Source: Streptomyces antimycoticus | GTDB taxonomy: Bacteria > Actinomycetota > Actinomycetes > Streptomycetales > Streptomycetaceae | Length of the DNA: 64,000 nt | Assembly (NCBI RefSeq): GCF_005405925.1 | Contig: NZ_BJHV01000001.1 | Coordinates: forward strand, 10,853,595-10,917,594 | Direction of reading: 5' to 3' | Part shown: positions 12,762 to 29,675 of the stretch, piece by piece | How positions within the stretch are numbered: the stretch's first letter is position 1 | How the letters are laid out: each line of letters begins with the position of its first letter | Notes under the pieces: generated by a model | The model's input: the letters and a program-made list of their open reading frames with translations, nothing else | Databases searched by the model: none | What the model was told of the DNA's origin: nothing | Position numbers and translations under genes: made by a program

Positions 12762-12999
12762 GGCGCCCATCCTGCCGAAGGCAACGGCCGCATCGGTAAT
12801 CTGGCGCTCGCCCGTTGCTGCCGCTCCGGGACGCAGGGCATCAAGCCGCCTGCACCGCACACCGTGAAACGGATGAAACATCGAGCCGACGGCCGACAGA
12901 TGACGCGCCACTTCGGCAACGAAAGCGGGGGAGGGCCTCGTACGTGGGCACGGCGATCTCCTCCGGGAAGCACGAAGCCCCCGGGCGGCGCCGGGGGCG

Positions 13000-13549: not shown

Positions 13550-13562
13550 CCGACGCCACGCG

Positions 13563-13597
13563 CTGACGCCCACGGACCCGACGCCCGTGGGCGTCAG
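13563..13597 (+). terminator. 13-bp perfect hairpin
   Basis: Arms CTGACGCCCACGG (13563-13575) and CCGTGGGCGTCAG (13585-13597) with a nine-base loop, just after the stop at 13549. Confidence 0.8.
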
Positions 13598-13760
13598 TGG
13601 CGACACCACCTGGTACGCCGGGCCAGCGGCGCGCCCCGCCTCGCGGGACGGATGACGAGGCCGCCGGAGCACCTGCCGGGATGCGGCCGACGCGCACGTC
13701 CTGGAGGTGGCGGAGAGGGGTGAGGGTGCAGAGGACCAACACCCGAGCAGGGAGGCCCGC

Positions 13761-14075
13761 ATGGTTGACCCGGTCCCGCTGTACCTCTCGCCGGAGCGCC
13801 TGAAGCAACTCCAGCGATTCACCGACGCGATTCGGCTACGAGCGGCTCTGTACCCGCCCCCGAAGCCGCCGAAGCCGCCGAAACCGCGTAGCCGCTCGCG
13901 GCGCCACCGACCGACCGAACCCCCCCGCGGACCGCTCTGCGTCGACGCCGCCAGGGTTGAGCGCGGGACTACCGGCGCACGTCCACTCGGCGTGACGCGA
14001 GCGGTGTGCGTCCATCCGCGTCTCGGGTGTGCACCGCGCACCCGATCCTCCCGGCCCCGTCGAATAGCTCACTGA
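13761..14075 (+). CDS. Small hypothetical protein
   Basis: 104 residues from an ATG at 13761 with a GGAGG site five bases before it, a better start than the upstream in-frame one. MVDPVPLYLSPERLKQLQRF reads like a real soluble N-terminus. It is followed by a KPPKPPKP tract and an Arg-rich region, after which composition becomes random, so the 3' half may be decayed. Function unknown. Confidence 0.4.
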   Translation: MVDPVPLYLSPERLKQLQRFTDAIRLRAALYPPPKPPKPPKPRSRSRRHRPTEPPRGPLCVDAARVERGTTGARPLGVTRAVCVHPRLGCAPRTRSSRPRRIAH

Positions 14076-14206
14076 ACGCCACGGGCCCGGGGACGTGTAC
14101 GGCGTCTGCCGGGCCCGTGGGGTTGAGGACCCGGCGTTTCAACAGCGCCGCAGGCGGGTTCCAGCGTTCTGCCTCGCGCCGTCGTGGCGCACGGGAGGAT
14201 GCTGCC

Positions 14207-14722
14207 ATGCCCTCTGACCACATGATGGTGATGGAACTCCTGCACGCTTCCCACGCTGCTGCCGGCCAGCCCGAACCAGCCCGGCGCATCGATGCACCCG
14301 ACTGCCAGGTCGTCAGCCGAGCCGCGCGAGCGGACGCGGACGAAGGCGGCATGCGACGAGTGGAGTTCCTCGCGATCGGTACCGCGATCTGCGCGCACGA
14401 TCTGACGACCGTCCTGGCCGGTCACAAGAACGTCTCCACCGAACAGCTCCTGGACGAACTCTCCGCTAGCCACCGCAACGCCGGCAGCGACAATCCGTTG
14501 CTCGGCCTGCTCCGCGCCATCCATGCCCAGGACATGCAACGCATGGCTGAACTCCTGGTGGATCTCTTCGGCCGCGACCAAGGCGCGTTCTTCGACCTGA
14601 TCGTGGAACTGGGCCGCTACGCCGCCGACTGCGTGTCCATGCTGGAGATCCTCGGCATCAGCCCAGTCGCGGAGACCCTCACCGAGTTGGAGATCACCGT
14701 CAGGGAGTACGCCGACAGCTGA
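14207..14722 (+). CDS. Hypothetical protein, helical
   Basis: 171 residues from the ATG at 14207 (MPSDHMMVMELLHASHAAAG), chosen because a GGGAGG site precedes it; the frame is open further upstream but without protein character. The body is rich in Leu/Ala helices (EQLLDELSASHRNAGSDNPL, GLLRAIHAQDMQRMAELLVD, LGRYAADCVSMLEILGISPV), with no signal peptide or membrane span. I do not recognise the family. It stands alone between a small hypothetical and the split RNA-ligase-like gene. Confidence 0.65.
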   Translation: MPSDHMMVMELLHASHAAAGQPEPARRIDAPDCQVVSRAARADADEGGMRRVEFLAIGTAICAHDLTTVLAGHKNVSTEQLLDELSASHRNAGSDNPLLGLLRAIHAQDMQRMAELLVDLFGRDQGAFFDLIVELGRYAADCVSMLEILGISPVAETLTELEITVREYADS

Positions 14723-15004
14723 TGGCAGCCGGGCCGGCCCCCGCCGCGCACGCCATCGTTGGACGGGCTGCTCCTGGGAGCCACGGGCTGGACGCCGGAT
14801 GAGATCGCCACCGGCGCCGCCCTGCCCACCGAGCTCGGGCAATTCCCTGGTGGCCGTGCGCTGTACGATCTGCGACCCCGGTGACCCGCCCGCTTCAACT
14901 GGTCGGGTGGCGCCCCCTGACCACAGCACCAGGAAGCTGGGGATAGCGCAGGCCCGTGCGGCACCGGGAGGATGGGCGGGACGCCAGCCGACAGGAAGGG
15001 CGCG

Positions 15005-15359
15005 ATGGAGAGCTTCTTCGAACGCGTCGGGAGTATCTGGTCGGCGGGCTGAGGCGATCTGCACTGGCACATCCTGCCGACTCCGGATGAGCCCTCGCCG
15101 CGCCGTACAAGGGATTAGCAGCCCCGCCGGGACTGCAGAGCGTGCCGGAGCAGGGTATGCACTGCACGCTCCTGCACGTCGTCGGACTGAGCAGCACCGA
15201 CATCGACACGGACGCGCTCCTCAAGGATGTCGGGAGCTACGCGCAGGTGGTGCGGCCGTTCACCTTGACGTTCGACCGGCCCGCGGTGGGCGCTGTCGCT
15301 GTGGAAATCAGCGGATGGCCGCGAGATCCGTTCGCCGGGATCGTGGACGCCCTCGCCTA
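15005..15359 (+). pseudogene. 2'-5' RNA ligase (LigT-like) gene, 5' half of a split gene
   Basis: ATG at 15005 (MESFFERVGSIWSAG, then a stop), continuing GDLHWHILPTPDEP, the first H-x-h motif region. It then runs one frame over as GLQSVPEQGMHCTLLHVVGL (second H-x-T motif), DIDTDALLKDVGSYAQVVRP and FTLTFDRPAVGAVAVEISGW to DALA at 15357. The nonsense codon and a shift near 15110 show it was already dying. At the TA at 15358-15359 it is interrupted by an 11-kb island; the rest resumes at 26351. Confidence 0.8.
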
Positions 15360-16231
15360 AAGGGTGTTGCAGAAGGCCGTGAACTGGCAGCCTGAGCTGC
15401 GGGGGCGGCGCGGTCTGCTCATGCGGTGAGGGCGAGGTTGTGCATGTGGGCGACGGCCTGGACAGCGTGATGGAGGCCGTTGCCGTGCTGTCGGCAGTCG
15501 CGGAGGATCTTGTGGTTCTTCATCCGGCCGATCACATGCTCCACCCGAGCGCGGACCTTGCGGTGCGCGGCATTGTCCTCTTCCTCGCCCTTCAGTAGCG
15601 GCCGCCCGGGCCGTTTGCGATGAGGGACGATCAGGCCGGTGTTGATGTAGGCACCGTCACCGAGCACGGTCACACCCTCGCAGTGCTCGGCCAGACCGGA
15701 CTCACGCCAGGCCTTCGCATCCGCCGTGGTGCCCGGCACCGGGCGAGCCGTAGCAATCACCAGGCGTGTGTCCGCGTCCACGATGACCTGCACGTTCGCC
15801 GAGAACCGGTAGTTGCGCGAAGACGTGCCCACCGTCCGATCGCGGACCGGGACCAGTGTCCCGTCCACGATCCACAACCGGTCCGCCGCCTGCTGGGGGG
15901 GCCGCACCGGCTCGAGCGCAAGGAGTGGTCCAAGGCGCTGGATGACCCGGCACACAGTGGCCGGCGAGATCCCGAACAAGGGCGCGAGCTGCCGCATGGT
16001 GAGGTTCGTGCGGTAGTACACGGCCACCAGCAGCACCCGTTCCGGCAACGGCAGCCGCCACGGGCGGCCCCACCCGCAGCCCTCACCACCACGCTCCCGG
16101 ACCGCCCTCAGCAGCCGCCCGAACTGATCCACCCGCAAGCCGGTGAACGTCTCCACCCACACCCGCTCGGCCCTCAACACCCCAGCCATACACCAGAGAT
16201 TCCCAGTTCACGGCCTTCTGCAACACGCTTT
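15360..16231 (-). mobile_element. IS5-type element A, copy 1
   Basis: Ends are AAGGGTGTTGCAGAAGGCCG and its inverse (right copy carries one substitution, AACACGCTT), flanked by TA. 872 bp, one transposase. One base longer than copy 2. Confidence 0.9.
15419..16189 (-). CDS. IS5-family transposase (DDE_Tnp_4 type), element A copy 1
   Basis: 256 residues, MAGVLRAERVWVETFTGLRV. An N-terminal HTH (NLTMRQLAPLFGISPATVCR) precedes the DDE core: Asp109 in WIVDGTLVPV, Asp178 in VLGDGAY, Glu217 in RARVEHVIGRMKNHK. Full length with intact catalytic residues, so probably active; the encoded protein is identical to the copy at 17164. Cuts and joins the element's own ends. Confidence 0.93.
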   Translation of the reverse strand: MAGVLRAERVWVETFTGLRVDQFGRLLRAVRERGGEGCGWGRPWRLPLPERVLLVAVYYRTNLTMRQLAPLFGISPATVCRVIQRLGPLLALEPVRPPQQAADRLWIVDGTLVPVRDRTVGTSSRNYRFSANVQVIVDADTRLVIATARPVPGTTADAKAWRESGLAEHCEGVTVLGDGAYINTGLIVPHRKRPGRPLLKGEEEDNAAHRKVRARVEHVIGRMKNHKILRDCRQHGNGLHHAVQAVAHMHNLALTA

Positions 16232-16233
16232 AA

Positions 16234-17102
16234 AGGGTGTTGCAGAAGGCCGTGATCAGGCAGGTCGGAGTGGTGATCGGAGGTGTGTGGTCATGCGGCG
16301 ATGGCGAGGTTGTGCATGCGGGCGACGGCCTGGACGGCGTGGTGGAGGCCGTTGCCGCGTTGCCGACAGTCGCGGAGGATCTTGTAGTTCTTCATGCGGG
16401 AGAAGGTGTGCTCGACGCGGGCGCGGACCTTGCGATGCTGCGCGTTGTCCTCCTCCTCGCCCTTCAACAGCGGGCGTCCGGGGCGTTTACGGTGCGGGAC
16501 AATCAGCCCGGTGTTGATATAGGCGCCGTCGCCGAGAACCGTCACGCCCTTGCAGTGCGCGGCCAGGCCGGAGTCCCGCCAGGCTTTCGCGTCCGCCGTG
16601 TTGCCGGGCACCGGCCGGGCCGCGGCCACCACCAGGCGCGTCTCCGCGTCCACGATGACCTGCACGTTCGCCGAGCACCGGTAGTTGCGCGAGGATGCTC
16701 CGACCTTGCGGTCACGGACCGGGACGAGAGTCCCGTCCACGATCCACAGCCGCTCGGCGGCATCGGTGGCGGCCCGGGCCGGCTCGAGCGCGAGCAGCGG
16801 ACCGAGCCGCTGGATCACCCGGCACACCGTCGCCGGTGAGACGCCGAACAGCGGGGCGAGCTGCCGCATGGTGAGGTTCGTGCGGTAGTACACGGCCACC
16901 AGCAGCACCCGCTCGGCCAGCGGCAGCCGCCACGGACGGCCCCAGCCGCAGCCCTCGCCACCACGTTCCCGGACGGCTTTCAGTAGCCGGCCGAACTGAT
17001 CGACCCGCAACCCGGTGAACGTCTCCACCCACACCCGCTCGGCCCTCAACACCCCAGCCATACAGCGGATATGCCCTGATCACGGCCTTCTGCAACACCC
17101 TT
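16234..17102 (-). mobile_element. IS5-type element B, copy 1
   Basis: Ends match AAGGGTGTTGCAGAAGGCCG perfectly on both sides; TA at 16232-16233 and 17103-17104 are shared with the neighbouring A elements. 869 bp. An inverted second copy lies at 23788. Confidence 0.9.
16291..17061 (-). CDS. IS5-family transposase, element B copy 1
   Basis: 256 residues, same family and length as the A transposase but with roughly 30 substitutions (for example LFGVSPATVC, LEPARAATDAAERLW, RVEHTFSRMKNYK). Catalytic Asp109, Asp178 and Glu217 are kept. Encoded protein identical to that at 23829-24599. Full length, probably active. The near-identical terminal repeats of A and B suggest they could cross-mobilise. 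Confidence 0.93.
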   Translation of the reverse strand: MAGVLRAERVWVETFTGLRVDQFGRLLKAVRERGGEGCGWGRPWRLPLAERVLLVAVYYRTNLTMRQLAPLFGVSPATVCRVIQRLGPLLALEPARAATDAAERLWIVDGTLVPVRDRKVGASSRNYRCSANVQVIVDAETRLVVAAARPVPGNTADAKAWRDSGLAAHCKGVTVLGDGAYINTGLIVPHRKRPGRPLLKGEEEDNAQHRKVRARVEHTFSRMKNYKILRDCRQRGNGLHHAVQAVARMHNLAIAA

Positions 17103-17104
17103 TA

Positions 17105-17975
17105 AAGGGTGTTGCAGAAGGCCGTGAACTGGCAGCCTGAGCTGCGGGGGCGGCGCGGTCTGCTCATGCGGTGAGGGCGAGGTTGTGCATGTGGGCGACG
17201 GCCTGGACAGCGTGATGGAGGCCGTTGCCGTGCTGTCGGCAGTCGCGGAGGATCTTGTGGTTCTTCATCCGGCCGATCACATGCTCCACCCGAGCGCGGA
17301 CCTTGCGGTGCGCGGCATTGTCCTCTTCCTCGCCCTTCAGTAGCGGCCGCCCGGGCCGTTTGCGATGAGGGACGATCAGGCCGGTGTTGATGTAGGCACC
17401 GTCACCGAGCACGGTCACACCCTCGCAGTGCTCGGCCAGACCGGACTCACGCCAGGCCTTCGCATCCGCCGTGGTGCCCGGCACCGGGCGAGCCGTAGCA
17501 ATCACCAGGCGTGTGTCCGCGTCCACGATGACCTGCACGTTCGCCGAGAACCGGTAGTTGCGCGAAGACGTGCCCACCGTCCGATCGCGGACCGGGACCA
17601 GTGTCCCGTCCACGATCCACAACCGGTCCGCCGCCTGCTGGGGGGGCCGCACCGGCTCGAGCGCAAGGAGTGGTCCAAGGCGCTGGATGACCCGGCACAC
17701 AGTGGCCGGCGAGATCCCGAACAAGGGCGCGAGCTGCCGCATGGTGAGGTTCGTGCGGTAGTACACGGCCACCAGCAGCACCCGTTCCGGCAACGGCAGC
17801 CGCCACGGGCGGCCCCACCCGCAGCCCTCACCACCACGCTCCCGGACCGCCCTCAGCAGCCGCCCGAACTGATCCACCCGCAAGCCGGTGAACGTCTCCA
17901 CCCACACCCGCTCGGCCCTCAACACCCCAGCCATACACCAGAGATTCCCAGTTCACGGCCTTCTGCAACACGCTT
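17105..17975 (-). mobile_element. IS5-type element A, copy 2
   Basis: Same ends as copy 1, including the right-end substitution; flanked by TA at 17103-17104 and 17976-17977. 871 bp. Confidence 0.9.
17164..17934 (-). CDS. IS5-family transposase, element A copy 2
   Basis: 256 residues, identical in protein sequence to 15419-16189, with the same HTH and DDE residues (Asp109, Asp178, Glu217). The identity of two copies separated by a diverged B element means the A pair arose recently. Confidence 0.93.
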   Translation of the reverse strand: MAGVLRAERVWVETFTGLRVDQFGRLLRAVRERGGEGCGWGRPWRLPLPERVLLVAVYYRTNLTMRQLAPLFGISPATVCRVIQRLGPLLALEPVRPPQQAADRLWIVDGTLVPVRDRTVGTSSRNYRFSANVQVIVDADTRLVIATARPVPGTTADAKAWRESGLAEHCEGVTVLGDGAYINTGLIVPHRKRPGRPLLKGEEEDNAAHRKVRARVEHVIGRMKNHKILRDCRQHGNGLHHAVQAVAHMHNLALTA

Positions 17976-17977
17976 TA

Positions 17978-19134
17978 CTGATCTTTTCGTAAGTTCGGTG
18001 GGTGTGCTGGCCTTGCGAGTGGGAGGCTTTCGGGGTGGCTTATCGACCCTCGCCTTCGGCTGCCGGCTCGTCTCTTCCTCCTTTGTCGCGGCCTCAGTTG
18101 GCGGAGGCACGGCGTGTTCGGGCGGTCGAGTTGTTCGAGGAGGGCGCCTCGAATGCGGAGATCGCGCGGGCGGTGGGTGTGTGTGCCGAGAGTGTGCGGC
18201 GTTGGCGTCGGGTGTGGAAGGAAGGCGGCGTTTGGGCCCTGCGGCGGCGTGCGGCCACCGGGCGCCCGCCCAAGCTGGACGACGCCCAGGTCGAGATGGT
18301 CCGGGCCGCGTTGGCGCGAGGTGCCCGGGCTCATGGTTTCGAGGCCGACCTGTGGACCCTGGAGCGAGTCGGCGCCGTCGTGGAGCAGAAAACGGGGGTG
18401 GTGTTGTCGAGGGCGTCGGTGTGGCGGCTGCTGACCGGCCGGCTCGGGTGGAGTCTGCAACGTCCCGAGCGGAGGGCGGTCGAGCGGGACGAGTCCGAGA
18501 TCGCCCGCTGGGTCGCGCACGAGTGGCCGCGCATCAAAAAGGGGCCGTGAACACACGTGCCTGGATCGTGTTCCTCGACGAATCAGGTGTCTCCCTGCTG
18601 CCTCAGATCCGCCGCACCTACGCACCCCGTGGCCGGACCCCGCTGCTGCGGCACCGCCTGAACTGGAAGCGGGCGTCGATGGCCGGGGCCCTGGGCTATC
18701 ACTCCACCGATCCCGAACGCGGGGCCCGTCTGTGCTTCCACCTCAAGCCCGGCAGCTACGACACCCCCGCGCTCATCGAGGTCCTGGAGTAGATGAAGGT
18801 ATTCTACCGCGGCGAGCAAGTGGTGCTGGTCCGAGACGGCCTGTCGGCCCACTGGAGCCGGGCGATGCGCGCCTGGGTCGCCGAGCAGGACTGGCTCACT
18901 CTGGAGCGATTACCCGCCTACGCTCCCGAGCTGAACCCGGTGGAACTGCTGTGGTCCTCGCTCAAGAAGCGTGAACTCGCCAACCTCGCCGGCGACCACC
19001 TCGCTGACGTCACCGACGCCACCGAACAAGGCATCCACCGCATCAACCACAACCCACAACTGCCATGGTCCTTTCTCGCCCACACCGGCATGACCATCCA
19101 CCCAACACACCCACCGAACTTACGAAAAGATCAG
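17978..19134 (+). mobile_element. IS630-type element, copy 1
   Basis: 1157 bp with terminal inverted repeats CTGATCTTTTCGTAAGTTCG and its inverse, flanked by TA at 17976-17977 and 19135-19136, the IS630 hallmark. Two overlapping reading frames. Confidence 0.92.
18002..18550 (+). CDS. IS630 transposase orfA (HTH domain), copy 1
   Basis: 182 residues from a GTG at 18002. RPQLAEARRVRAVELFEEGA, SNAEIARAVGVCAESVRRWR and ATGRPPKLDDAQVEMVRAAL form the two HTH motifs that bind IS630 ends. It ends IKKGP-stop; the catalytic domain follows in the -1 frame across CATCAAAAAGGGGCC, a plausible ribosomal slip site, so orfA/orfB would be made as a fusion. WKEGGVWALRR here differs from WEQDGASGLRR in copy 2. 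Confidence 0.85.
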   Translation: MCWPCEWEAFGVAYRPSPSAAGSSLPPLSRPQLAEARRVRAVELFEEGASNAEIARAVGVCAESVRRWRRVWKEGGVWALRRRAATGRPPKLDDAQVEMVRAALARGARAHGFEADLWTLERVGAVVEQKTGVVLSRASVWRLLTGRLGWSLQRPERRAVERDESEIARWVAHEWPRIKKGP

Positions 19135-19137
19135 TAG
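18547..19137 (+). pseudogene. IS630 transposase orfB (DDE), copy 1, amber mutation
   Basis: VNTRAWIVFLDESGVSLLPQ holds the first Asp/Glu region of the IS630 D-D-E core. QVVLVRDGLSAHWSRAM (second Asp) and LNPVELLWSSLKKRE (Glu) follow. A TAG at 18790-18792 replaces the CAG (Gln) of copy 2, cutting the catalytic domain in two, so this copy should be unable to transpose itself but could be mobilised by copy 2's enzyme. The final stop TAG uses the flanking target TA. Confidence 0.9.
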
Positions 19138-19159
19138 GGCGTGTTTCGAAAGTCAACGT

Positions 19160-19200
19160 CGGGACGGCGGTTTCCGCCATAGCGGTGGTTTGCCGTCCCG
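19160..19200 (+). promoter_or_regulatory. Large hairpin upstream of the decarboxylase
   Basis: Outer arms CGGGACGGC (19160-19168) and GCCGTCCCG (19192-19200), inner CCGC-CATA-GCGG. It lies 77 bases before the start codon. It could be a leader structure, a terminator stopping read-through from IS630, or an old IS end: the 19137 flank GGGCGTGTTTCGAAAGT resembles the IS5-C terminus. Confidence 0.5.
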
Positions 19201-19276
19201 GCCGCCGTTCTGCCCGGTGCGCCGCCAGGACACTGGCCGGGGCGGCCGGGGGCCGCCGTGGAGGGCGGGAGAGCGC

Positions 19277-21688
19277 ATGGCCGACAGCAGGATCCTGGTC
19301 GCGGTACCGGAACACCCTCGGGGCGAGGGCGCCGAGTCCCAGCAGTTACGGAAGATCCGGGACGCGATCGAGGCGGGCGGCTTCGAAGTCCGGTGGGTGG
19401 TAACGGCGGAGGACGCGGACGCGGTACTGCGCACCGAGGCTGGTCTGGCGGCGGCGCTGGTGGCCTGGGGCCTTCCCAGGGCCGCCGGTGACGGGCCCGG
19501 CGCCGCGCTCGCCGCGCCGGGAGGCACACTCGCCCGGCCGGGCAGCACCCTCGACGGGACCCCAGGCGGCGGCGCTGTGCTGCGCCGGATCGGCCGCCGA
19601 TTCCGGGACCTGCCGGTCTTCTTGGTGATGGCCGACGAGGGCCTGGGGGACCTGCCGCTGTGGGTGTCCGAGTCGGTCGTGGGCTACGTCTGGCCGCTGG
19701 AGGACACCCCGGGCTTCATCGCGGGCCGCATCACCACCGCCGCCCACGCCTACCGGGCATCCGTGCTGCCGCCGTTCTTCCGGGCACTGCGCCGGTTCGA
19801 CGACGCCCACGAATACTCCTGGCACACCCCGGCCCACTCCGGCGGTGTCGCCTTCCTCAAGTCGCCGGCGGGACGCGCCTTCCACGACTACTTCGGAGAG
19901 CGGCTGCTGCGCAGCGACCTGTCGATCTCGGTCGAGGAACTGGGCTCGCTGTTCGAGCACACCGGCCCGATCGGCGAGGCGGAGCGCAACGCGGCCCGTG
20001 TGTTCGGCTCCGAACTCACCTACTTCGTGCTGCACGGCGACTCGACGTGCAATCGCCTGGTAGGCCATTTCAGCGTCACCCGCGACGAGATCGCGCTGGT
20101 GGACCGCAACTGCCACAAGTCCGTGCTGCACGGCCTGGTCGTCTCGGGTGCCCGGCCGGTCTACCTGGTCCCCACCCGTAACGGCTACGGCCTGGCGGGA
20201 CCGCTGCCCCCGGCCGAGATCGCCGCGGACGCGGTGGCGGCCCGGATCGCCGCGCATCCGCTCACCGAGGGCGCGGTGTCCCCGCACCCGCAGTACGCGG
20301 TGTTCACCAACTCCACTTACGACGGCCTGAGTTACGACGCCGTAGCCACCGCTCGCGCGTTCGCCGCCAGTACGCCCCGGGTGCACTTCGACGAGGCGTG
20401 GTTCGCGTACGCCCGTTTCCACCCGCTCTACGCCGGCCGTTACGGCATGTCGGTGGACGAGGATGCCTTCCCCGGCCCGGACCGCCCGACCGTGTTCGCC
20501 ACCCAGTCCACGCACAAGCTGCTGGCGGCGCTGTCGCAGAGCGCGATGGTGCACATGCGATCCGCACCGCGGGCACCGGTGGAGCATGACCGGTTCAACG
20601 AGGCGCTGATGATGCACGGCACCACCTCGCCCCTCTACCCAATGATCGCCTCGCTCGACGTGGCGACGGCGATGATGGACGGCCCGCAGGGCGAGTGGCT
20701 GATCGACGAGGCGGTGACCGAGGCGATCCGCTTCCGTCAGGAGACGGTGCGCCTGCGACGGCGGATCGAGAGCGCCGGGGACCGGCCGCCGTGGTTCTTC
20801 GGGGTGTGGCAGCCGGACACGGTCACCGACCCGGCGACCGGCGAACGGCTGCCGTTCGAGGAAGCCCCGCCGGAGCTGCTGCGCACCGAGCAGTCCTGCT
20901 GGCTGCTGGAGCCCGGCGCCGACTGGCACGGTTTCCCCGGGCTGACCGAGGGCCACTGCATGTTGGACCCCGTCAAGGTCACGCTGACCTGTCCGGGGAT
21001 CAGCGCCACCGGCGAGATGGCCGAGGAGGGCATCCCGGCCCGGGTGCTCACCGCCTATCTGGCCACCCGGAAGATTGTGGTGGAGAAGACCGACAGTTAC
21101 ACCACGCTGATCCTGTTCTCCATGGGCATCACCAAGGGCAAGTGGGGCACCCTGCTGGACGCCCTGACGGATTTCAAGGCCCTCTACGACGCCGACGCCC
21201 CACTGGAGCGGGTCCTGCCGGAGGCCGTCGCCGCGCATCCCCGCCGGTACGCGGGCCTGACCCTGCGCGGGCTGTGCCAGGAGATGCACGAGCAACTGCG
21301 CTCGGTGCGCCTGGTGGAGCTTCTGGACACGGCCTTCCAGCAGCTCCCGCAGCCCGTGGCGCCACCTCAGCACTGTTATCAGCGGCTGGTGCGGGGTGAC
21401 ACCGAGCGGGTCCGGATCTCGGAGGCGGCGGGCCGGGTGGCGGCCGCCATGGTGACGGTCACCCCGCCTGGCATCCCGGTCCTGATGCCGGGCGAGTCCA
21501 TCGGCGCACCCGACGGCCCGCTGCTGCGCTATCTCACCGCCCTGGAGTCCTTCGACCGCCGCTTCCCCGGCTTCCGCAGCGAGACCCACGGCGTGACCAA
21601 CGACGAGGACACGGGCGACTACCTGATCGAGTGCCTGATCCAGGGCGCGGGGCAGATGCCGGGGCACTCGCCCGGGCGTATCGGTTAG
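19277..21688 (+). CDS. Orn/Lys/Arg decarboxylase, class-I PLP-dependent
   Basis: 803 residues from the ATG at 19277 (MADSRILVAVPEHPRGEGAE; GGAG seven bases upstream). There is an N-terminal flavodoxin-like wing domain, then the large PLP domain with SWHTPAHSGG, GDSTCNRLVGHFSVTRDEI and VHFDEAWFAYARFHPLY. The PLP lysine is about residue 414 in TQSTHKLLAALSQSA. A C-terminal domain ends HGVTNDEDTGDYLIECLIQG. Length and order match inducible-type amino-acid decarboxylases (AdiA/CadA/SpeF family). It would convert a basic amino acid to agmatine, cadaverine or putrescine, consuming a proton; the substrate cannot be assigned. The stop TAG lies exactly at the IS5-C boundary, so the last residues are IS-defined. 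Flanked by inverted IS630 copies. Confidence 0.92.
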   Translation: MADSRILVAVPEHPRGEGAESQQLRKIRDAIEAGGFEVRWVVTAEDADAVLRTEAGLAAALVAWGLPRAAGDGPGAALAAPGGTLARPGSTLDGTPGGGAVLRRIGRRFRDLPVFLVMADEGLGDLPLWVSESVVGYVWPLEDTPGFIAGRITTAAHAYRASVLPPFFRALRRFDDAHEYSWHTPAHSGGVAFLKSPAGRAFHDYFGERLLRSDLSISVEELGSLFEHTGPIGEAERNAARVFGSELTYFVLHGDSTCNRLVGHFSVTRDEIALVDRNCHKSVLHGLVVSGARPVYLVPTRNGYGLAGPLPPAEIAADAVAARIAAHPLTEGAVSPHPQYAVFTNSTYDGLSYDAVATARAFAASTPRVHFDEAWFAYARFHPLYAGRYGMSVDEDAFPGPDRPTVFATQSTHKLLAALSQSAMVHMRSAPRAPVEHDRFNEALMMHGTTSPLYPMIASLDVATAMMDGPQGEWLIDEAVTEAIRFRQETVRLRRRIESAGDRPPWFFGVWQPDTVTDPATGERLPFEEAPPELLRTEQSCWLLEPGADWHGFPGLTEGHCMLDPVKVTLTCPGISATGEMAEEGIPARVLTAYLATRKIVVEKTDSYTTLILFSMGITKGKWGTLLDALTDFKALYDADAPLERVLPEAVAAHPRRYAGLTLRGLCQEMHEQLRSVRLVELLDTAFQQLPQPVAPPQHCYQRLVRGDTERVRISEAAGRVAAAMVTVTPPGIPVLMPGESIGAPDGPLLRYLTALESFDRRFPGFRSETHGVTNDEDTGDYLIECLIQGAGQMPGHSPGRIG

Positions 21689-21709
21689 GGTCTCTTGGGA
21701 AAGTGCTGG

Positions 21710-22411
21710 TCACAGCCACTCGTTGAGGACTGCGACCAGCACTGTCGCCTCGTAGCGGACGGCGAGCTTGTCGTACCTCGTGGCGACGGCCCGGTGGCGC
21801 TTGAAACGATTGATTCCGCACTCGAGGGCATGGCGCTCGCGGTAGTCGGTCTTGTCGAACTTCGGCGGCCGACCGCCTCGGGAGCCTAGCTTCTGACGAT
21901 TGCGGACGCGGTCCGCCGGGACCGGGATGGTCGCCTTGATTCCGCGTCTTCGCAGGTACGCTCGGTTGCGGCGGGAGTCGTACGCCTTGTCAGCCCGCAC
22001 CCGGTCCGGTCGACTGCGAGGCCGGCCAGGACCGAGTCGGGGCACCCGAATCGCCTCCAGGACCGGCCCGAACTGCGGCGAGTCACCCCGCTGCCCGGCC
22101 GTGATCAGTACAGACAGAGGCTTCTGCCCCTGTTCGACGGCGAGGTGGATCTTTGTGGTCAGCCCGCCCCGGGAACGTCGGAGGCCGTGGTCGGTCGGCT
22201 CGACGGCGATGCCGCCAGGCGGCTCCTTTTGCAGGCCCCCCTTTTCGACGCTCCGACGGCGTGCTGGTGAGCCCGGCACACGGTGGAGTCGACATTCACA
22301 TCCCAGGTGATCAGGCCCTTCACGTCGGCCTCGGCCTGGAGCTGGGTGACGATCCGGGCCCAGGTGCCATCGCGCTGCCAGCGCCGGAACAGGTCGTAGG
22401 CCCGGTCCCAC
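21710..22411 (-). CDS. IS5-C transposase, C-terminal (DDE) frame
   Basis: Meaningful from about 22240 downward: [40 protein letters not shown], then [20 protein letters not shown] (second Asp) and [20 protein letters not shown] (catalytic Glu). The first 60 or so codons are out of the real frame. Expected to be expressed only as a frameshift fusion with the upstream frame. Intact, probably functional. Confidence 0.85.
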
Positions 22412-22584
22412 GGCCCGCAGCGTTCTGGCACATCACGCCAGGGAACACCGGTCCGGGTCCGCCACCGTATGCCGTCTATCAGCTGCCGCCGAGTCCATAC
22501 CGGCGGACGGCCCGGCTTGATGCCCCGCGGCAACAACGGCTCCAGCCGGGCCCACTGGCCATTCGTCAGATCACCACGCCCCAC
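22159..22584 (-). CDS. IS5-C transposase, N-terminal frame
   Basis: 141 residues, [20 protein letters not shown]. It carries the DUF4096-type N-terminal domain ([36 protein letters not shown]) and reaches [15 protein letters not shown], the first catalytic Asp. After GASKRG the frame loses sense. The message has AAAA followed by GGGGGG at 22236-22245, a typical programmed -1 slip site joining it to the next frame. Confidence 0.85.
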
Positions 22585-23216
22585 GGAACGTGATCATCCA
22601 CGACCAAGATCCACTTTCGCAACAGACCCTGATCTTTTCGTAAGTTCGGTGGGTGTGGTGGGTGGATGGTCAGGCCGGTGTGGGCGAGAAAGGACCATGG
22701 CAGTCGGGGGTTGGCGTTGATGCGGTGGATGCCTTGTTCGGTGGCGTCGGCGACATCGGCGAGGTGGTCGCCGGCGAGGTTGGCGAGTTCACGCTTCTTG
22801 AGCGAGGACCACAGCAGTTCCACCGGGTTCAGCTCGGGAGCGTAGGCGGGTAATCGTTCCAGGGTTAGCCAGTCCTGTTCGGCGACCCAGGCGCGCATCG
22901 CCCGGCTCCAGTGGGCGGACAGGCCGTCCCAGACCAGCACCACTTGCTCGCCGCGGTAGAACACCTTCATCTGCTCCAGGACCTCGATGAGCGCGGTGGT
23001 GTCGTAGCTGCCGGGCTTGAGGTGGAAGCACAGACGGGCCCCGCGTTCGGGATCGGTGGAGTGATAGCCCAGGGCCCCGGCCATCGACGCCCGCTTCCAG
23101 TTCAGGCGGTGCCGCAGCAGCGGGGTCCGGCCACGGGGTGCGTAGGTGCGGCGGATCTGAGGCAGCAGGGAGACACCTGATTCGTCGAGGAACACGATCC
23201 AGGCACGTGTGTTCAC
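22566..23216 (-). CDS. IS630 transposase orfB (DDE), copy 2
   Basis: Starts VNTRAWIVFLDESGVSLLPQ. The core is uninterrupted: LEQMKVFYRGEQVVLVWDGL (second Asp; Gln where copy 1 has a stop) and LNPVELLWSSLKKRE (Glu). Because IS5-C removed the flanking TA, the normal stop is lost, and the protein runs on 17 residues ([17 protein letters not shown]) into IS5-C. Probably the functional transposase source for both IS630 copies. Confidence 0.87.
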   Translation of the reverse strand: MNTRAWIVFLDESGVSLLPQIRRTYAPRGRTPLLRHRLNWKRASMAGALGYHSTDPERGARLCFHLKPGSYDTTALIEVLEQMKVFYRGEQVVLVWDGLSAHWSRAMRAWVAEQDWLTLERLPAYAPELNPVELLWSSLKKRELANLAGDHLADVADATEQGIHRINANPRLPWSFLAHTGLTIHPPHPPNLRKDQGLLRKWILVVDDHVPWGVVI

Positions 23217-23785
23217 GGCCCCTTTTTGATGCGCGGCCACTCGTGCGCGATCCAGCGGGCGATCTCGGACTCGTCCCGCTCGACCGCCCTCCGCTCGGGA
23301 CGTTGCAGACTCCACCCGAGCCGGCCGGTCAGCAGCCGCCACACCGACGCCCTCGACAACACCACCCCCGTTTTCTGCTCCACGACGGCGCCGACTCGCT
23401 CCAGGGTCCACAGGTCGGCCTCGAAACCATGAGCCCGGGCACCTCGCGCCAACGCGGCCCGGACCATCTCGACCTGGGCGTCGTCCAGCTTGGGCGGGCG
23501 CCCGGTGGCCGCACGCCGCCGCAGGCCCGAAGCACCGTCTTGCTCCCACACCCGACGCCAACGCCGCACACTCTCGGCACACACACCCACCGCCCGCGCG
23601 ATCTCCGCATTCGAGGCGCCCTCCTCGAACAACTCGACCGCCCGAACACGCCGTGCCTCCGCCAACTGAGGCCGCGACAAAGGAGGAAGAGACGAGCCGG
23701 CAGCCGAAGGCGAGGGTCGATAAGCCACCCCGAAAGCCTCCCACTCGCAAGGCCAGCACACCCACCGAACTTACGAAAAGATCAG
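22629..23785 (-). mobile_element. IS630-type element, copy 2 (inverted)
   Basis: 1157 bp, same terminal repeats as copy 1 but in reverse orientation. TA at 23786-23787 on its outer side; the inner TA has been replaced by IS5-C. Confidence 0.92.
23213..23761 (-). CDS. IS630 transposase orfA (HTH domain), copy 2
   Basis: 182 residues, same two HTH motifs as copy 1 (SNAEIARAVGVCAESVRRWR) with local differences (WEQDGASGLRRRAATG). It ends IKKGP-stop; the -1 frame continues as orfB across the same A5G4 stretch. Confidence 0.85.
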   Translation of the reverse strand: MCWPCEWEAFGVAYRPSPSAAGSSLPPLSRPQLAEARRVRAVELFEEGASNAEIARAVGVCAESVRRWRRVWEQDGASGLRRRAATGRPPKLDDAQVEMVRAALARGARAHGFEADLWTLERVGAVVEQKTGVVLSRASVWRLLTGRLGWSLQRPERRAVERDESEIARWIAHEWPRIKKGP

Positions 23786-23787
23786 TA

Positions 23788-24657
23788 AAGGGTGTTGCAG
23801 AAGGCCGTGATCAGGGCATATCCGCTGTATGGCTGGGGTGTTGAGGGCCGAGCGGGTGTGGGTGGAGACGTTCACCGGGTTGCGGGTCGATCAGTTCGGC
23901 CGGCTACTGAAAGCCGTCCGGGAACGTGGTGGCGAGGGCTGCGGCTGGGGCCGTCCGTGGCGGCTGCCGCTGGCCGAGCGGGTGCTGCTGGTGGCCGTGT
24001 ACTACCGCACGAACCTCACCATGCGGCAGCTCGCCCCGCTGTTCGGCGTCTCACCGGCGACGGTGTGCCGGGTGATCCAGCGGCTCGGTCCGCTGCTCGC
24101 GCTCGAGCCGGCCCGGGCCGCCACCGATGCCGCCGAGCGGCTGTGGATCGTGGACGGGACTCTCGTCCCGGTCCGTGACCGCAAGGTCGGAGCATCCTCG
24201 CGCAACTACCGGTGCTCGGCGAACGTGCAGGTCATCGTGGACGCGGAGACGCGCCTGGTGGTGGCCGCGGCCCGGCCGGTGCCCGGCAACACGGCGGACG
24301 CGAAAGCCTGGCGGGACTCCGGCCTGGCCGCGCACTGCAAGGGCGTGACGGTTCTCGGCGACGGCGCCTATATCAACACCGGGCTGATTGTCCCGCACCG
24401 TAAACGCCCCGGACGCCCGCTGTTGAAGGGCGAGGAGGAGGACAACGCGCAGCATCGCAAGGTCCGCGCCCGCGTCGAGCACACCTTCTCCCGCATGAAG
24501 AACTACAAGATCCTCCGCGACTGTCGGCAACGCGGCAACGGCCTCCACCACGCCGTCCAGGCCGTCGCCCGCATGCACAACCTCGCCATCGCCGCATGAC
24601 CACACACCTCCGATCACCACTCCGACCTGCCTGATCACGGCCTTCTGCAACACCCTT
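23788..24657 (+). mobile_element. IS5-type element B, copy 2 (inverted relative to copy 1)
   Basis: Perfect ends AAGGGTGTTGCAGAAGGCCG / inverse; TA at 23786-23787 and 24658-24659. Confidence 0.92.
23829..24599 (+). CDS. IS5-family transposase, element B copy 2
   Basis: 256 residues, protein identical to 16291-17061 on the opposite strand, with DDE residues Asp109, Asp178 and Glu217. With its twin it brackets the IS630/decarboxylase core as an inverted pair. Confidence 0.93.
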   Translation: MAGVLRAERVWVETFTGLRVDQFGRLLKAVRERGGEGCGWGRPWRLPLAERVLLVAVYYRTNLTMRQLAPLFGVSPATVCRVIQRLGPLLALEPARAATDAAERLWIVDGTLVPVRDRKVGASSRNYRCSANVQVIVDAETRLVVAAARPVPGNTADAKAWRDSGLAAHCKGVTVLGDGAYINTGLIVPHRKRPGRPLLKGEEEDNAQHRKVRARVEHTFSRMKNYKILRDCRQRGNGLHHAVQAVARMHNLAIAA

Positions 24658-24659
24658 TA

Positions 24660-26348
24660 GAAGACTGATGAAGATCTTGAGGTTCTGGCCTTGCGGTGTG
24701 AGTGGCAGGCCCAGACTCGTGTCGTGGCGATGGGTGAGTGGGTCGGGGAGACGGTCGGGCCGGACGTGTGGGAGACGTGTCGGGGTTTGATCCCAGTCGG
24801 GAGTGTGTTCGCGTTTCTGGCCGAGCATCGGGGGAGGCTGTTTCCGGCTCAGATGTTCGCGGACATGTATCCGTCGGCGAACGGGCGGCCGAGTATGCCG
24901 CCGCAGATCCTGGCCGCTGCGATCACTCTGCAGGCCCTGCACGGGCTGTCGGATTACCAGACCGTGCAGGAATTGCGGTGTGACCTGCGGTGGAAGGCCG
25001 CGTGCGGGCTGGGCCTTTACGACATGGCGTTCGACCCGTCGCTGCTGGCCTACTTCCGCCGCCGGCTGGCCCGCTCCGCCCGTCCGAACCGGATCTTCGA
25101 GACCGTACGCGAAGTCGTGAAGAGCACCGGAGTACTGAAAGGCAAGCACCGTCGGGCGCTGGACTCCACCGTGCTGGACGACGCGGTCGCCACCCAGGAC
25201 ACGGTCACCCAGATCATCGCCGCCATCAGGACAGTCATCCGTGAGGTCCCACACGCGGCCGAACAAGCAGCAATCCAGTGCACCGCCCACGATTACACCG
25301 ACCCGGGCAAACCCCGCATCGCCTGGAACGACGAGCAGGCCCGAGCCGACCTCATCGACGCACTGGTCACCGACGCGGTGCGGCTGCTGGGCCACCTGCC
25401 CGACCAACAGCTCGGGGAGAAAGCCGCGAACGCGCTCGGCCTGCTGGCCCTGGTCGCAGGACAGGACGTCGAACCCGCCGAGGACTCCAACGGCCGTGAC
25501 GGGCGTTGGCGCATCACTCAGGGCACCGCCTACGACCGGATGATCTCCACCGTCGACCCCGAAGCCCGCCACGTCCACAAGACCCGCACCCACCGGCAGG
25601 ACGGCTTCAAGGCCCACCTGGCCGTCGAGCCCGAGACCGGCTTATACACCGCCCTCGCTCTGCGGCCGGCAACCGGAACCGAGCACCACGAGGCCACTGT
25701 CGGCATCGACTTGCTCGCCGACGAAGACAGCCCGGTGGACGTCTTCGGCGACAGCGCCTACTCCACTGGCGACACCTGCCAGATCCTGCACCGAGCAGGA
25801 CACCGACTCTTCCTCAAGCCCGCCCCGCTGAAGACGGCTGTCCTTGGCGGGTTCAGCCTCGACGACTTCGCCATCAACACCGCGGGCAGCACGGTGACCT
25901 GCCCCGCCGGACACACCGTCCCGCTCAGCGAGCCGTCCGGGCGGCACATGCAACGCAAAGCGCTCTTCACCGACCAGTGCGCCAGCTGCCCCCTGCGCAA
26001 GCAGTGCACCACCGCCAAGACCGGCCGGATCGTCACCATCCGCCCCCACCACGACCTGCTCACCGCTGCCCGCCACCAGGCCAGCACCGACCCCGACTGG
26101 CAAGCCGCCTACCGACGATGGAGACCACCCGTCGAACGCGCCGTCGCCTGGCTCGTCGCCCACGGCAACCGCAGACTCCGCTACCGCGGCACCATCAAGA
26201 ACAACGCCTGGCTCCACACCCGTGCCGCAGCCCTCAACCTGCGAACCCTGATCAACCTCGGACTCAACCACAACGGCGACACCTGGCACACCCCCGCTAT
26301 CACCTGACCACGGCAACCAGAATCACACCAAGATCTTCATCAGTCTTC
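24660..26348 (+). mobile_element. IS1182-family element
   Basis: 1689 bp; ends GAAGACTGATGAAGATCTTG and exact inverse CAAGATCTTCATCAGTCTTC, flanked by TA on both sides (24658-24659, 26349-26350). Confidence 0.92.
24691..26307 (+). CDS. IS1182-family transposase
   Basis: 538 residues as an open frame; MGEWVGETVGPDVWETCRGL from the ATG at 24730 is the likelier start. N-terminal DUF772 domain (MFADMYPSANGRPSMPPQIL, QALHGLSDYQTVQELRCDLR). The DDE core has RRALDSTVLDDAVATQDTV, GFKAHLAVEPETGL, VFGDSAYSTGDTCQILH and VERAVAWLVAHGNRRLRYRG. A Cys cluster (QCASCPLRKQCTTAKTG) is typical of the family. Complete, apparently intact. It is the outermost element of the island. Confidence 0.93.
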   Translation: MRCEWQAQTRVVAMGEWVGETVGPDVWETCRGLIPVGSVFAFLAEHRGRLFPAQMFADMYPSANGRPSMPPQILAAAITLQALHGLSDYQTVQELRCDLRWKAACGLGLYDMAFDPSLLAYFRRRLARSARPNRIFETVREVVKSTGVLKGKHRRALDSTVLDDAVATQDTVTQIIAAIRTVIREVPHAAEQAAIQCTAHDYTDPGKPRIAWNDEQARADLIDALVTDAVRLLGHLPDQQLGEKAANALGLLALVAGQDVEPAEDSNGRDGRWRITQGTAYDRMISTVDPEARHVHKTRTHRQDGFKAHLAVEPETGLYTALALRPATGTEHHEATVGIDLLADEDSPVDVFGDSAYSTGDTCQILHRAGHRLFLKPAPLKTAVLGGFSLDDFAINTAGSTVTCPAGHTVPLSEPSGRHMQRKALFTDQCASCPLRKQCTTAKTGRIVTIRPHHDLLTAARHQASTDPDWQAAYRRWRPPVERAVAWLVAHGNRRLRYRGTIKNNAWLHTRAAALNLRTLINLGLNHNGDTWHTPAIT

Positions 26349-27371
26349 TAGGCGATGGCCCGCACTGGCGCCGCCTTCACGGCCGCACCGAGCCGCTACC
26401 CCCACATGTCCGTCGCCTACGACCTCGGACGGCGCTGAGGACGTCGACACGGTCACCCTCGAGGCCGCTCTGGCAGACATCGCGCAGCTCTTGGCCGGGA
26501 ACGATTTCCCCGGAACCCGCCCGATCCACGGTGACACCGTCCAGCTCATCACCGATATCACCTCGGTGACGGCCACCGGGAGCATCACCTGCCAAGGTGT
26601 CCTCCGCGAGGGCCGGGGGTTCGTTGAGCTCACCCTGCCCGACGCCGACCCGCAGCAGCCGCGCTTCGGCGAGTGACGCGCAGGAGGGGGCCAAGACGCG
26701 GGCCGCTTCTTGGCCGGAGCCTTTTTGGCGGTCTTCTTCGTCGCCTTCTTGGCGGGGGCCTTCTTCTTGGGCCGCATCTCCCGGACCTCGCCTTCGCCGA
26801 CTTCCTCGCCGCGGCTCTGCTTGGCCGCTCGCACGCTGTCCTGGAGGGCGGACATCAGGTCCACGACCTTGCCCTTGGGCTCGGCCGGCGCCTCCGCGTG
26901 GGGTGGCTCGGCGCCTTCGCCGCCGTCGCGCTCGCGTCCGTGGAAGGCGAACTTCGCCACGGCCACCTTGTCGCTTCTTTTGAGTGCCTCGCGCAGCAGT
27001 ACATACGGTTTGGTGGCGACGACCCCGTTTCGCTCGAGGTAGTAGGGCTTGCCGTAGCGGATGGCATCGAGCCGCTCCTCGGGCACGAAGGCCTGCACAT
27101 CGATCGCCTTCGCGGTCGGCAGGGGGAGCTGGTCGAGGTCTTCGTCGGTGATGGGGACGAGCTGGTCGCGCGAGACCTCGTAGGCGCGGCCGATCTCTTC
27201 TGGGGCGAGTTCGCGGTCTTCGATCTCGCACACCTTGCGGTTTCGGACGAGGCCGTGGTCGGGCATGTGAATCTGCCGGAACCGGATCGAATGATCTTCG
27301 GTTGCCGAATACATCTTGATGGGAATCGTCACCAGACCAAACGACACCGCACCGCTCCAAACGGGGCGCAT
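26340..27371 (-). CDS. ku: Ku DNA-end-binding protein, internally deleted and with a replaced tail
   Basis: ATG at 27371 with a GGAGG site five bases upstream. MRPVWSGAVSFGLVTIPIKM, FRQIHMPDHGLVRNRKVCE, EEIGRAYEVSRDQLVPITDE and FVPEERLDAIRYGKPYYLER are the canonical bacterial Ku core. KRSDKVAVAKFAFHGRER then jumps to DGGEGAEPPHAEAPAEPKGK and VVDLMSALQDSVRAAKQS, so the stretch normally found there (LALLRV onward, some 60-80 residues) appears missing. A Lys/Ala tail (KKKAPAKKATKKTAKK) follows, and the frame then runs through antisense LigT DNA into the IS1182 end (HRLED-stop). The normal partner LigD is not in the window. End joining by this protein is doubtful. Confidence 0.8.
   Translation of the reverse strand: MRPVWSGAVSFGLVTIPIKMYSATEDHSIRFRQIHMPDHGLVRNRKVCEIEDRELAPEEIGRAYEVSRDQLVPITDEDLDQLPLPTAKAIDVQAFVPEERLDAIRYGKPYYLERNGVVATKPYVLLREALKRSDKVAVAKFAFHGRERDGGEGAEPPHAEAPAEPKGKVVDLMSALQDSVRAAKQSRGEEVGEGEVREMRPKKKAPAKKATKKTAKKAPAKKRPASWPPPARHSPKRGCCGSASGRVSSTNPRPSRRTPWQVMLPVAVTEVISVMSWTVSPWIGRVPGKSFPAKSCAMSARAASRVTVSTSSAPSEVVGDGHVGVAARCGREGGASAGHRLED
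26351..26676 (+). pseudogene. 2'-5' RNA ligase (LigT-like) gene, 3' half
   Basis: If the island and one TA are removed, the frame from 15357 continues directly: DALA, a TAG, then AMARTGAAFTAAPSRYPHMS and VAYDLG, the conserved P-H-x-S-x-AY segment of LigT-like proteins. A one-base shift near 26435 then gives AEDVDTVTLEAALADIAQLL and on to a stop at 26676. The last 60 residues (HGDTVQLITDITSVTATG) are less typical of the family. It overlaps the truncated end of Ku on the other strand. Confidence 0.7.
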
Positions 27372-27435
27372 GGCTACCTCCACAGGCACCCCCCTGGGGT
27401 CTCCCAGCGTATGCGAGGTATGGCGGTGATTGTCC

Positions 27436-27477
27436 TGTGCCATCGAAGTTTGAGCTTGTGCCAGCGAAGTTTGAGTG
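27436..27477. repeat. Two 21-bp direct repeats upstream of ku
   Basis: TGTGCCATCGAAGTTTGAGC and TGTGCCAGCGAAGTTTGAGT, period 21, two full helical turns; 65 bases upstream of the Ku start on its promoter side. Possible activator or repressor sites. Confidence 0.6.
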
Positions 27478-27483
27478 GCCTGG

Positions 27484-27791
27484 GTCGCTTGGACTGGCGG
27501 GGTCTGACTGACTTGGGCGCGCTGCTCGAAGGGCTCGGCCACACCCCCGCGCACGTCGCCGGCACGTCCTTCGGCGCGTCGGTCGTCCTCGGCCTGGCCG
27601 CACGTCGGCCCGAGCTGTTCCGCAGCATCGCGGTCCACGAGTCACCGCCGATGGAGGTCCTGGCCGACGGCCCGGCAGCCATGGAACAGCTGCAGCCGGC
27701 AATGGTCTCCATCGCTCCCGTGCTGGACCACCTCCGCAAGGCAGAGTCGGACTTGGCTGACCCCGCGAAGGTCGTCGCGCGGCTGCGCTGA
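27484..27791 (+). pseudogene. Alpha/beta hydrolase fragment (nucleophile-elbow region)
   Basis: LGALLEGLGHTPAHVAGTSF and GASVVLGLAARRPELFRSIA carry the G-T-S-F-G nucleophile elbow of an alpha/beta hydrolase, followed by VHESPPMEVLADGPAAMEQL and a helical segment to a stop at 27791. The N-terminal strand set and oxyanion loop, the catalytic Asp and the His are all absent. No credible start codon. Three bases separate its stop from that of the convergent TetR gene. Confidence 0.7.
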
Positions 27792-27793
27792 CG

Positions 27794-28417
27794 TCAGGTC
27801 GCCGCGTGGCGGCGCACGCGCTCGATCATCGCGGTCAGGACGGTTTCCAGGGCGACCGTGTCCTGACGGGCCTGGTTCATGAGCAGGCCGCCCTGGAGCG
27901 CGGTGAGCAGCGCGAGGGCCAGATAGCCGGGGTCGGCGTCCTCGGTCAGCTCGCCCCGGTCCCGCATCGCTTCGAGCCCGCGGCGGATGGCCTCCTCCCA
28001 CTTGCCGTACACGGCGGCGAGTTCGGTGCGGGCCCGCGGGTCGCGGTCGGAGAGTTCGGCGGACAGTGAGCCGATCGGACAGCCTGAGTGATGCCCGCGC
28101 GCGAGCTGGGCGCCGACGATCGCGTCGCGCCAGGCTTCCAGGGCCTCGAAGCTGTCGAGCCGGCTCAGCAGCGGCCGCTGGAAGCCGAGGACGGACTCCG
28201 TCTGGTGCTCGATCACAGCCTGGACGAGGGCTCGTTTGTCGCTGAAGTAGTGGTAGAGCTGCGAGGGGCTGGCCACCCGCGCGGCCTTGAGGACGTTTTC
28301 CGTACTCGTGCCCGCCACGCCGCCCTCGAACATGAGCCCGGCCGCCGCAGCCACGATGCGGTCGCGGGTTGCCTGCCCCTTGGGGGTCAGTCGTCCGGAT
28401 GTCGCACCAGTGCTCAT
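27794..28417 (-). CDS. TetR/AcrR-family regulator
   Basis: 207 residues, MSTGATSGRLTPKGQATRDR. HTH: RIVAAAAGLMFEGGVAGTST then ENVLKAARVASPSQLYHYFS with the typical YHYFSDKRAL ending helix 4. The C-terminal ligand/dimer domain contains GHHSGCPIGSLSAEL, a TetR_C subgroup often linked to redox or small-molecule stress. Divergent from the redoxin gene across 120 bases holding an AT-rich dyad, so it probably represses that operon and itself. Confidence 0.92.
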   Translation of the reverse strand: MSTGATSGRLTPKGQATRDRIVAAAAGLMFEGGVAGTSTENVLKAARVASPSQLYHYFSDKRALVQAVIEHQTESVLGFQRPLLSRLDSFEALEAWRDAIVGAQLARGHHSGCPIGSLSAELSDRDPRARTELAAVYGKWEEAIRRGLEAMRDRGELTEDADPGYLALALLTALQGGLLMNQARQDTVALETVLTAMIERVRRHAAT

Positions 28418-28436
28418 GAGACAAACGGTATCAAAA

Positions 28437-28487
28437 ATTGGAGTAAGCGATCTATATTTAGGTCACATTTAGATGGCTCGCTCTAAA
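28437..28487. promoter_or_regulatory. AT-rich dyad in the tetR/redoxin spacer
   Basis: Arms ATTGGAGTAAGCGATCT (28437-28453) and AGATGGCTCGCTCTAAA (28471-28487) are inverted repeats matching at about 12 of 17 positions. The spacer is strikingly A/T-rich for this DNA. Candidate TetR operator covering the redoxin promoter. Confidence 0.55.
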
Positions 28488-28537
28488 ATCAGGCTGCCGA
28501 CGCGGATCACCGACGCGGACCGGACGGAAACGAACTG

Positions 28538-29035
28538 ATGGAGAACTCCATGACATGGCTGAACGCGGGATCGCCCTTTCCGGATCTGACCGTCGACGTG
28601 GCCGGACGCGGCCGTGTCTCCGTACGGGAGGAACTGGCGGGGGACTACGGCGTGGTGCTGATCTATCGCGGCTCGTGGTGCCCGTACTGCAACGCCCAGC
28701 TCAGGGCCTTCGAACGGGCGCGGGACACCCTCGCGGAACTCGGCGTCAAGGTGATCGCCCTCTCGGTGGACGACGAGGCGACGACCAAGGCCCTGGTGGC
28801 CAAGCTGCGCTTGACCTTCCCGGTCGCCCACGGGGCGGACGCCGACGCGGTATCGCGGGCGACGGGGGCCTTCGTCAACGCGGACCCCCCGTACCTGCAG
28901 TCGACCGGTTTCGTGCTCGACCCCTCGGGCGAGGTGGTGGTGTCGGTCTACTCCAGCGGAGCCATCGGCCGCCTGCTCCCGGAGGACGTCGCGGGCCTGA
29001 TCCGCTACATCAGGCAGAGCGCCGCCGATGCCTGA
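28538..29035 (+). CDS. Thiol peroxidase-like redoxin (AhpC/TSA family)
   Basis: 165 residues; ATG 28538, or 28550 (MTWLNAGSPFPDLTVDVAGR), which has the better GGAGA site. Thioredoxin fold with LIYRGSWCPYCNAQLRAFER: a CxxC pair in the position of the peroxidatic Cys. ELGVKVIALSVDDEATTKAL, FPVAHGADADAVSRATGAF and STGFVLDPSGEVVVSVYS complete the AhpC/TSA pattern. Likely reduces peroxides or disulfides in the cytoplasm. Followed by an overlapping DUF417 gene (ATG inside its last codons), divergent from tetR. Confidence 0.9.
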   Translation: MENSMTWLNAGSPFPDLTVDVAGRGRVSVREELAGDYGVVLIYRGSWCPYCNAQLRAFERARDTLAELGVKVIALSVDDEATTKALVAKLRLTFPVAHGADADAVSRATGAFVNADPPYLQSTGFVLDPSGEVVVSVYSSGAIGRLLPEDVAGLIRYIRQSAADA

Positions 29036-29526: not shown

Positions 29527-29573
29527 AGCCCTTCCATCGTCGGCATCCGCCCGGTTTGAGCCGGGAAACAAGA

Positions 29574-29609
29574 AACCGCCCCCGGCCTGTTCGCAGGTCG
29601 AGGGCGGTT
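29574..29609 (+). terminator. Hairpin after the redoxin operon
   Basis: AACCGCCC (29574-29581) pairs with GGGCGGTT (29602-29609), with an inner CCTG-TTCG-CAGG stem. It lies 48 bases after the DUF417 stop. Confidence 0.75.
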
Positions 29610-29675
29610 CGTGGCAGTAGCGGGCTGTGACTCCCGGGCCACGGCCCCTGTACGCCGCCCTCGAAGAACCCCAGG

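Follow-up and report, generated by a model that had tools for sequence, protein, structure and literature searches.

An island of 10,991 bp in the genome of Streptomyces antimycoticus is probably a nest of eight TA-duplicating units that entered, stepwise, one CTAG within a decaying 2'-5' RNA ligase-like (LigT-like) gene. This reading is carried by relatives that are free of the island and co-linear across its site, by a TA at all junctions but one, by CTAG being preferred at other sites by these or related elements, and by IS427-type ends on both sides of a unit holding a decarboxylase gene. The window (the whole stretch of 64,000 nucleotides that was analysed) closes contig C1 (10,917,594 bp) in a genome of 11.17 Mb and three contigs, and the named DNA resembling the island elements is mainly from Streptomyces (2/2, 46/47 and 35/37 records).

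The island and its borders

An earlier note on this DNA had described an island of about 11 kb, which proves to be real with borders exact to the base. Read from the letters, the order is LigT-like DNA, TA, A1, TA, B1, TA, A2, TA, IS630, TA, then an IS427-type end with the decarboxylase gene, TA and the IS427-like element, then without a TA the second IS630, and from there TA, B2, TA, IS1182, TA and LigT-like DNA again. The features are as follows.

14757..15357, + strand: left flank, holding the 5' part of the decayed LigT-like gene and the DNA upstream of it (alignment to relatives)
15358..15359, no strand: TA at the left edge, making CTAG together with the right edge (letters at border)
15360..16230, - strand: IS5-like A1, 871 bp, transposase 15419-16189 (Pfam DDE_Tnp_4, HTH_Tnp_4); identical to A2
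16233..17102, - strand: IS5-like B1, 870 bp, transposase 16291-17061 (Pfam DDE_Tnp_4, HTH_Tnp_4); identical to B2
17105..17975, - strand: IS5-like A2, 871 bp; identical to A1
17978..19134, + strand: IS630 copy 1, 1157 bp, with an amber stop within the DDE part (profile match, letters)
19137..22629, no strand: IS427-bounded unit, made up of a left terminus (19137-19153), the decarboxylase gene and the IS427-like element (end consensus; homologous DNA in locus L134)
19277..21688, + strand: Orn/Lys/Arg decarboxylase gene, 803 aa, its stop TAG on the IS427 border (profile match)
21688..22629, - strand: IS427-like element of the IS5 family, its transposase encoded by two overlapping frames (NF033580, 122.7 bits, cut-off 110; ends compared with plasmid copies)
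22629..23785, - strand: IS630 copy 2, 1157 bp, no TA at its left junction (NF033545 at cut-off)
23788..24657, + strand: IS5-like B2, 870 bp; identical to B1
24660..26348, + strand: IS1182, 1689 bp, transposase 24691-26307 (NF033551, 341.8 bits, cut-off 270; six other copies)
26349..26350, no strand: TA at the right edge (letters at border)
26351..26664, + strand: right flank, the 3' part of the LigT-like gene and then part of the next gene, the DNA between them missing (relatives)

One of the eight mobile units thus listed carries the decarboxylase gene. That the island is made of IS5, IS630 and IS1182 only, as the earlier note had it, does not stand: four kinds of element are present, and the decarboxylase gene with the IS427-like element lies inside at 19137-22629. 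Nor are the transposases of IS5 and IS1182 wholly unrelated, the IS1182 protein scoring 83 bits on an IS5 model, below its cut-off. The TA that had been seen at every junction is there at eight of the nine junctions of IS5, IS630 and IS1182 elements and is lacking at 22628/22629, where three bases are missing from the length that two ends and a TA would give; the C at 22629 could be part of either the IS427-like element or IS630 copy 2. A TA stands on both sides of IS630 in copy 1 and at loci L073 and L075, and copy 2 is without it on one side; a TA-less junction was also considered for L073 and rejected, the TA being present there.

Elements A and B are called IS5-like because they match Pfam DDE_Tnp_4 and HTH_Tnp_4 above cut-off, their scores on the NCBIfam IS5 profile NF033581 (93.9 and 90.9 bits) being below the cut-off of 140. 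IS630 copy 2 reaches NF033545 barely, with 100 bits at a cut-off of 100, and DDE_3 above cut-off, and for the element at 21688..22629 we take the group name to be IS427. An Rfam scan of positions 12000-30000 gave no matches.

The host gene in island-free relatives

Both flanks do belong to one gene of the 2'-5' RNA ligase superfamily, as first proposed: PF13563 scores 37.6 bits (cut-off 27) on the open frame of L139, a relative, and the 73-aa left piece of the window by itself gave no profile match. In the left flank the open part of the LigT frame starts no earlier than about 15091. Matches to the 73-aa piece were found in 4/99 other genomes at 29-39% identity in a protein search, and a DNA search matched 51/392 genomes (own included), mostly via very short pieces. 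Nineteen relative loci were tested, both halves being matched in ten; the remaining nine, which match no more than a small stretch of the left piece, were left unaligned. Aligned across 15357/26351, all ten relatives with both halves are continuous and have two bases where the window has its TA-flanked island, one of them (L095) with 12 extra bases immediately before the insertion site. Partial stages of the nest, for which the earlier note advised comparing related strains, were not found among the relatives looked at.

Removal of the island was said to restore the reading frame, and the halves do share a frame, but the join reads GCC-TAG-GCG and so holds an in-frame stop. The codon at the join is a sense codon in nine of the ten relatives and TAG in one (L089). 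Beyond that stop, the LigT-like gene of the window carries additional stops and frame changes to the left and to the right of the join, plus the missing DNA, and therefore was probably decaying independently of the island.

To the right of the LigT-like fragment a frame at 26340-27638 (- strand) resembles, by eye, a Ku DNA repair protein.

Target preference

A landing pad used repeatedly by several families that duplicate TA, as proposed, agrees with the junctions and with the co-linear relatives, with the amendment that the shared preference is for CTAG and that the kinds of element present are four. Where both borders could be read, the reconstructed empty site was CTAG in 24 of 29 cases, TTAG in two, CTAA in two and CTAC in one; 22 of the 24 were found by script and two, both IS427 sites, by eye from the letters, a third IS427 site being CTAA. 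The 29 comprise the window island, whose outer site is CTAG, nine others in the same genome, two in named chromosomes, eight plasmid copies and nine of 29 survey loci. Left out were the other 20 survey loci, the truncated plasmid copies L146, L147 and L151, and the duplicates L148 and L190; counted once were genome G290 (L173, L186, L192) with L103 (the same dimer and flank), L168 with L148 (the same site), L162 with its repeat L190, and L170 with its repeat L191. CTAG surrounds only 11 of the 719 TAs of the window, 11 observed against 181 expected by base composition. At single element ends, those of the own genome and repeats among them, the base before the TA is C in 43 cases, T in six and G in three. 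Elsewhere in this genome one CTAG holds the triple IS5-B array of locus L074, and IS630 sits alone in one CTAG and together with IS5-B in one TTAG.

IS1272 belongs to IS1182, and the island transposase is above the NCBIfam cut-off for that family. According to the report on it, IS1272 replaces inverted repeats (PMC5678879). Unlike it, IS1182 of the island type sits in CTAG at six of six other copies, and the window copy has TTA, not CTA, at its left and TAG at its right. This left TTA fits only with a later insertion of IS5-B2 or with TTAG being accepted as a site.

The sequence TAGGGYCTGTCNNCAAAGGGG, with at most one mismatch, occurs at only two places in the genome (G000:C1:6099839-6099859 and 9380103-9380123), and both directly adjoin an inserted element, an IS1182 copy at one and a triple IS5-B array at the other. 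Across 12 plasmid regions (one unannotated) the annotated stop codon of a neighbouring gene lies across the IS border in six (L143, L145, L149, L150, L152, L154); when empty these six sites would also read TAG or TAA, and so these elements seem placed in stop codons.

The decarboxylase unit

Scored on an end consensus built from the elements of this analysis, the outer termini of the unit match the IS427 type at 14/15 positions on the left (19137-19153) and 15/15 at the other end, with the left TA present and the right one missing. Long matches to the decarboxylase gene, with E = 0 and spanning at least some 2.0 of 2.56 kb, were found in 48/294 other genomes of the genus. At locus L134, in another genome, the decarboxylase has the larger part of the same IS427-like element after it, with 95% identity over 3,318 columns up to 22430, this copy being cut short and containing unread bases, and is preceded by a TA and a similar IS427-type end. 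Homology in L135-L137 begins at 19152, the inner edge of the left IS427-type terminus; of the IS427 end L135 retains about 80 bases and L136 at most about 17. The linkage in L134 and the start of homology in L135-L137 therefore support, at the level of sequence, an arrival of the decarboxylase as an IS427-bounded unit, though the right TA is gone. Adjoining the truncated IS427-like element, positions 1-900 of L134 (G145) hold repeats that by eye are like a CRISPR array.

Alternative explanations

Sequential insertion, as the earlier note proposed it, fits the junctions, but a strict one-by-one order is unproven, A1 being the same as A2 and B1 the same as B2 letter for letter; recombination or tandem duplication among such identical copies could therefore have made part of the array, namely the head-to-tail A-B-A and the inverted B1/B2. 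Locus L074 (6125-8738) likewise holds three identical IS5-B copies head-to-tail, separated by single TAs and all within one CTAG, and five of the six distinct IS5-IS5 junctions are head-to-tail (four in the own genome, one in L102). Such an origin nevertheless seems unlikely, since exactly one TA is kept at each IS5-IS5 junction, A-B-A requires two different elements (A and B diverge by about 16%), and the sixth junction, in L103, is an inverted pair found elsewhere, as independent insertion predicts.

The inverted pairs of IS630 and of B that flank the decarboxylase, with TA outside, would also suit a composite transposon, a ready-made IS630...IS630 or IS5-B...IS5-B block moved as one. This is a rather poorer candidate, given that the two IS630 copies differ at 27/1157 positions and are each closer to a different genomic copy, and that in L134 it is the IS427-like element that accompanies the decarboxylase, with no DNA match to this IS630 at that locus; a different IS630-type transposase frame (by eye) lies there at 6884-7468, about 2.7 kb away. 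A misassembly that joined unrelated repeat copies is very improbable: identical repeats are a common cause of misjoins, yet the unique DNA on either side is co-linear in ten relatives with exact borders, and the middle of the island holds the single-copy decarboxylase DNA.

Proposed order of insertion and target renewal

In the preferred reading, stepwise entry into one CTAG, we infer a point change in the LigT-like gene, insertions made in turn and a rebuilding of CTAG that keeps the site attractive. The point change would have created the in-frame stop and the CTAG together, and elements would then have inserted one after another into the TA within CTAG or a near variant. The IS427-like element and IS1182, with first letter G and last letter C, would rebuild CTAG at both ends and so keep the site attractive, which the ends of IS5-A/B and IS630 would not do; the loss of three bases at 22628/22629 may be a small imprecision of one event.

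Enumeration from the end letters alone leaves 2,064 of 40,320 orders that keep every insertion in CTAG, CTAA or TTAG, with at least four of the eight insertions needing a weaker context than CTAG. The maximum of four CTAG events is reached in 350 of the 2,064, the first unit then being IS427 (245) or IS1182 (105); other starters among the 2,064 allowed orders are B1 (378), A2 (315), B2 (245) and A1 (133), and B2 precedes IS1182 in 1,167. The B copies are all identical and those of IS1182 nearly so, and therefore divergence gives no order.

Complete A or B copies number eight in the own genome, at three places, and another element adjoins at all three. A tandem IS5-IS5 junction occurs in 2/295 genomes (own included) and the exact IS427-IS5 junction pattern in 3/295, the own genome not among them, and therefore such arrays are uncommon. 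An IS427-type end (at least 11/15) stands directly beside an IS5-A/B end at 6/29 loci of other genomes versus 5/2,206 other TAs of L155-L184, with the consensus drawn from elements seen here, the best-scoring end counted for each of the 29 loci, and the sixth locus, L183, at only 11/15. The IS5 pairs of L102 and L103 are, by eye, also beside IS427-type ends, L103 being the L173 locus and one of the six. It may simply be that an element next to another survives better, and these counts do not separate attraction from survival of harmless insertions. It is conceivable, if somewhat short of probable, that CTAG-preferring elements with G...C ends (IS427-like, IS1182) copy CTAG to both of their own edges, each insertion so offering every CTAG family a landing site that renews itself and would explain IS nests in Streptomyces, and that the preference for CTAG guides insertions into TAG stops, where they do no harm.

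Relation to known elements

Tandem or nested IS clusters place several elements in one place, and IS870 is an element of the IS5 family. IS870 is reported to need CTAG for the stop codon of its ORF to be formed (Fournier 1993), and elements of the IS630 / Tc1-mariner family to prefer the TA in CTAG (Tenzen and Ohtsubo 1991). The island IS630 shares with the latter the TA duplication, the CTAG site and a DDE_3 transposase. IS870 is likened to the island elements by description, not by sequence, in its CTAG site and in a stop codon that arises where the element ends, although here it is the neighbours (the decarboxylase and the LigT-like piece) that gain the stop. As IS630 and IS870 were already credited with a CTAG preference, the nest is an example, well resolved, of a kind already known. 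It differs from IS clusters in general by borders resolved to the base and by a rule through which the target could be renewed. This renewal is the more novel part, and CTAG renewal by element ends had no report among the matches listed in the one open-access library searched. A repeat-rich stretch so becomes a readable record of insertion with a metabolic gene shown in the nest between IS427-type ends, and the rule is testable: where CTAG is rare in GC-rich genomes, some elements would multiply a target that they share with others.

With ISY100 in vitro, 3/39 products carried TA at one side and a lone A at the opposite side (PMC2170065). Beside IS630 copy 2 of the island, unlike in those products, three bases are missing. 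Between the HTH and DDE frames of IS630 (18535-18544) lies an A-rich run, CAAAAAGGGG, as in elements with programmed frameshifting.
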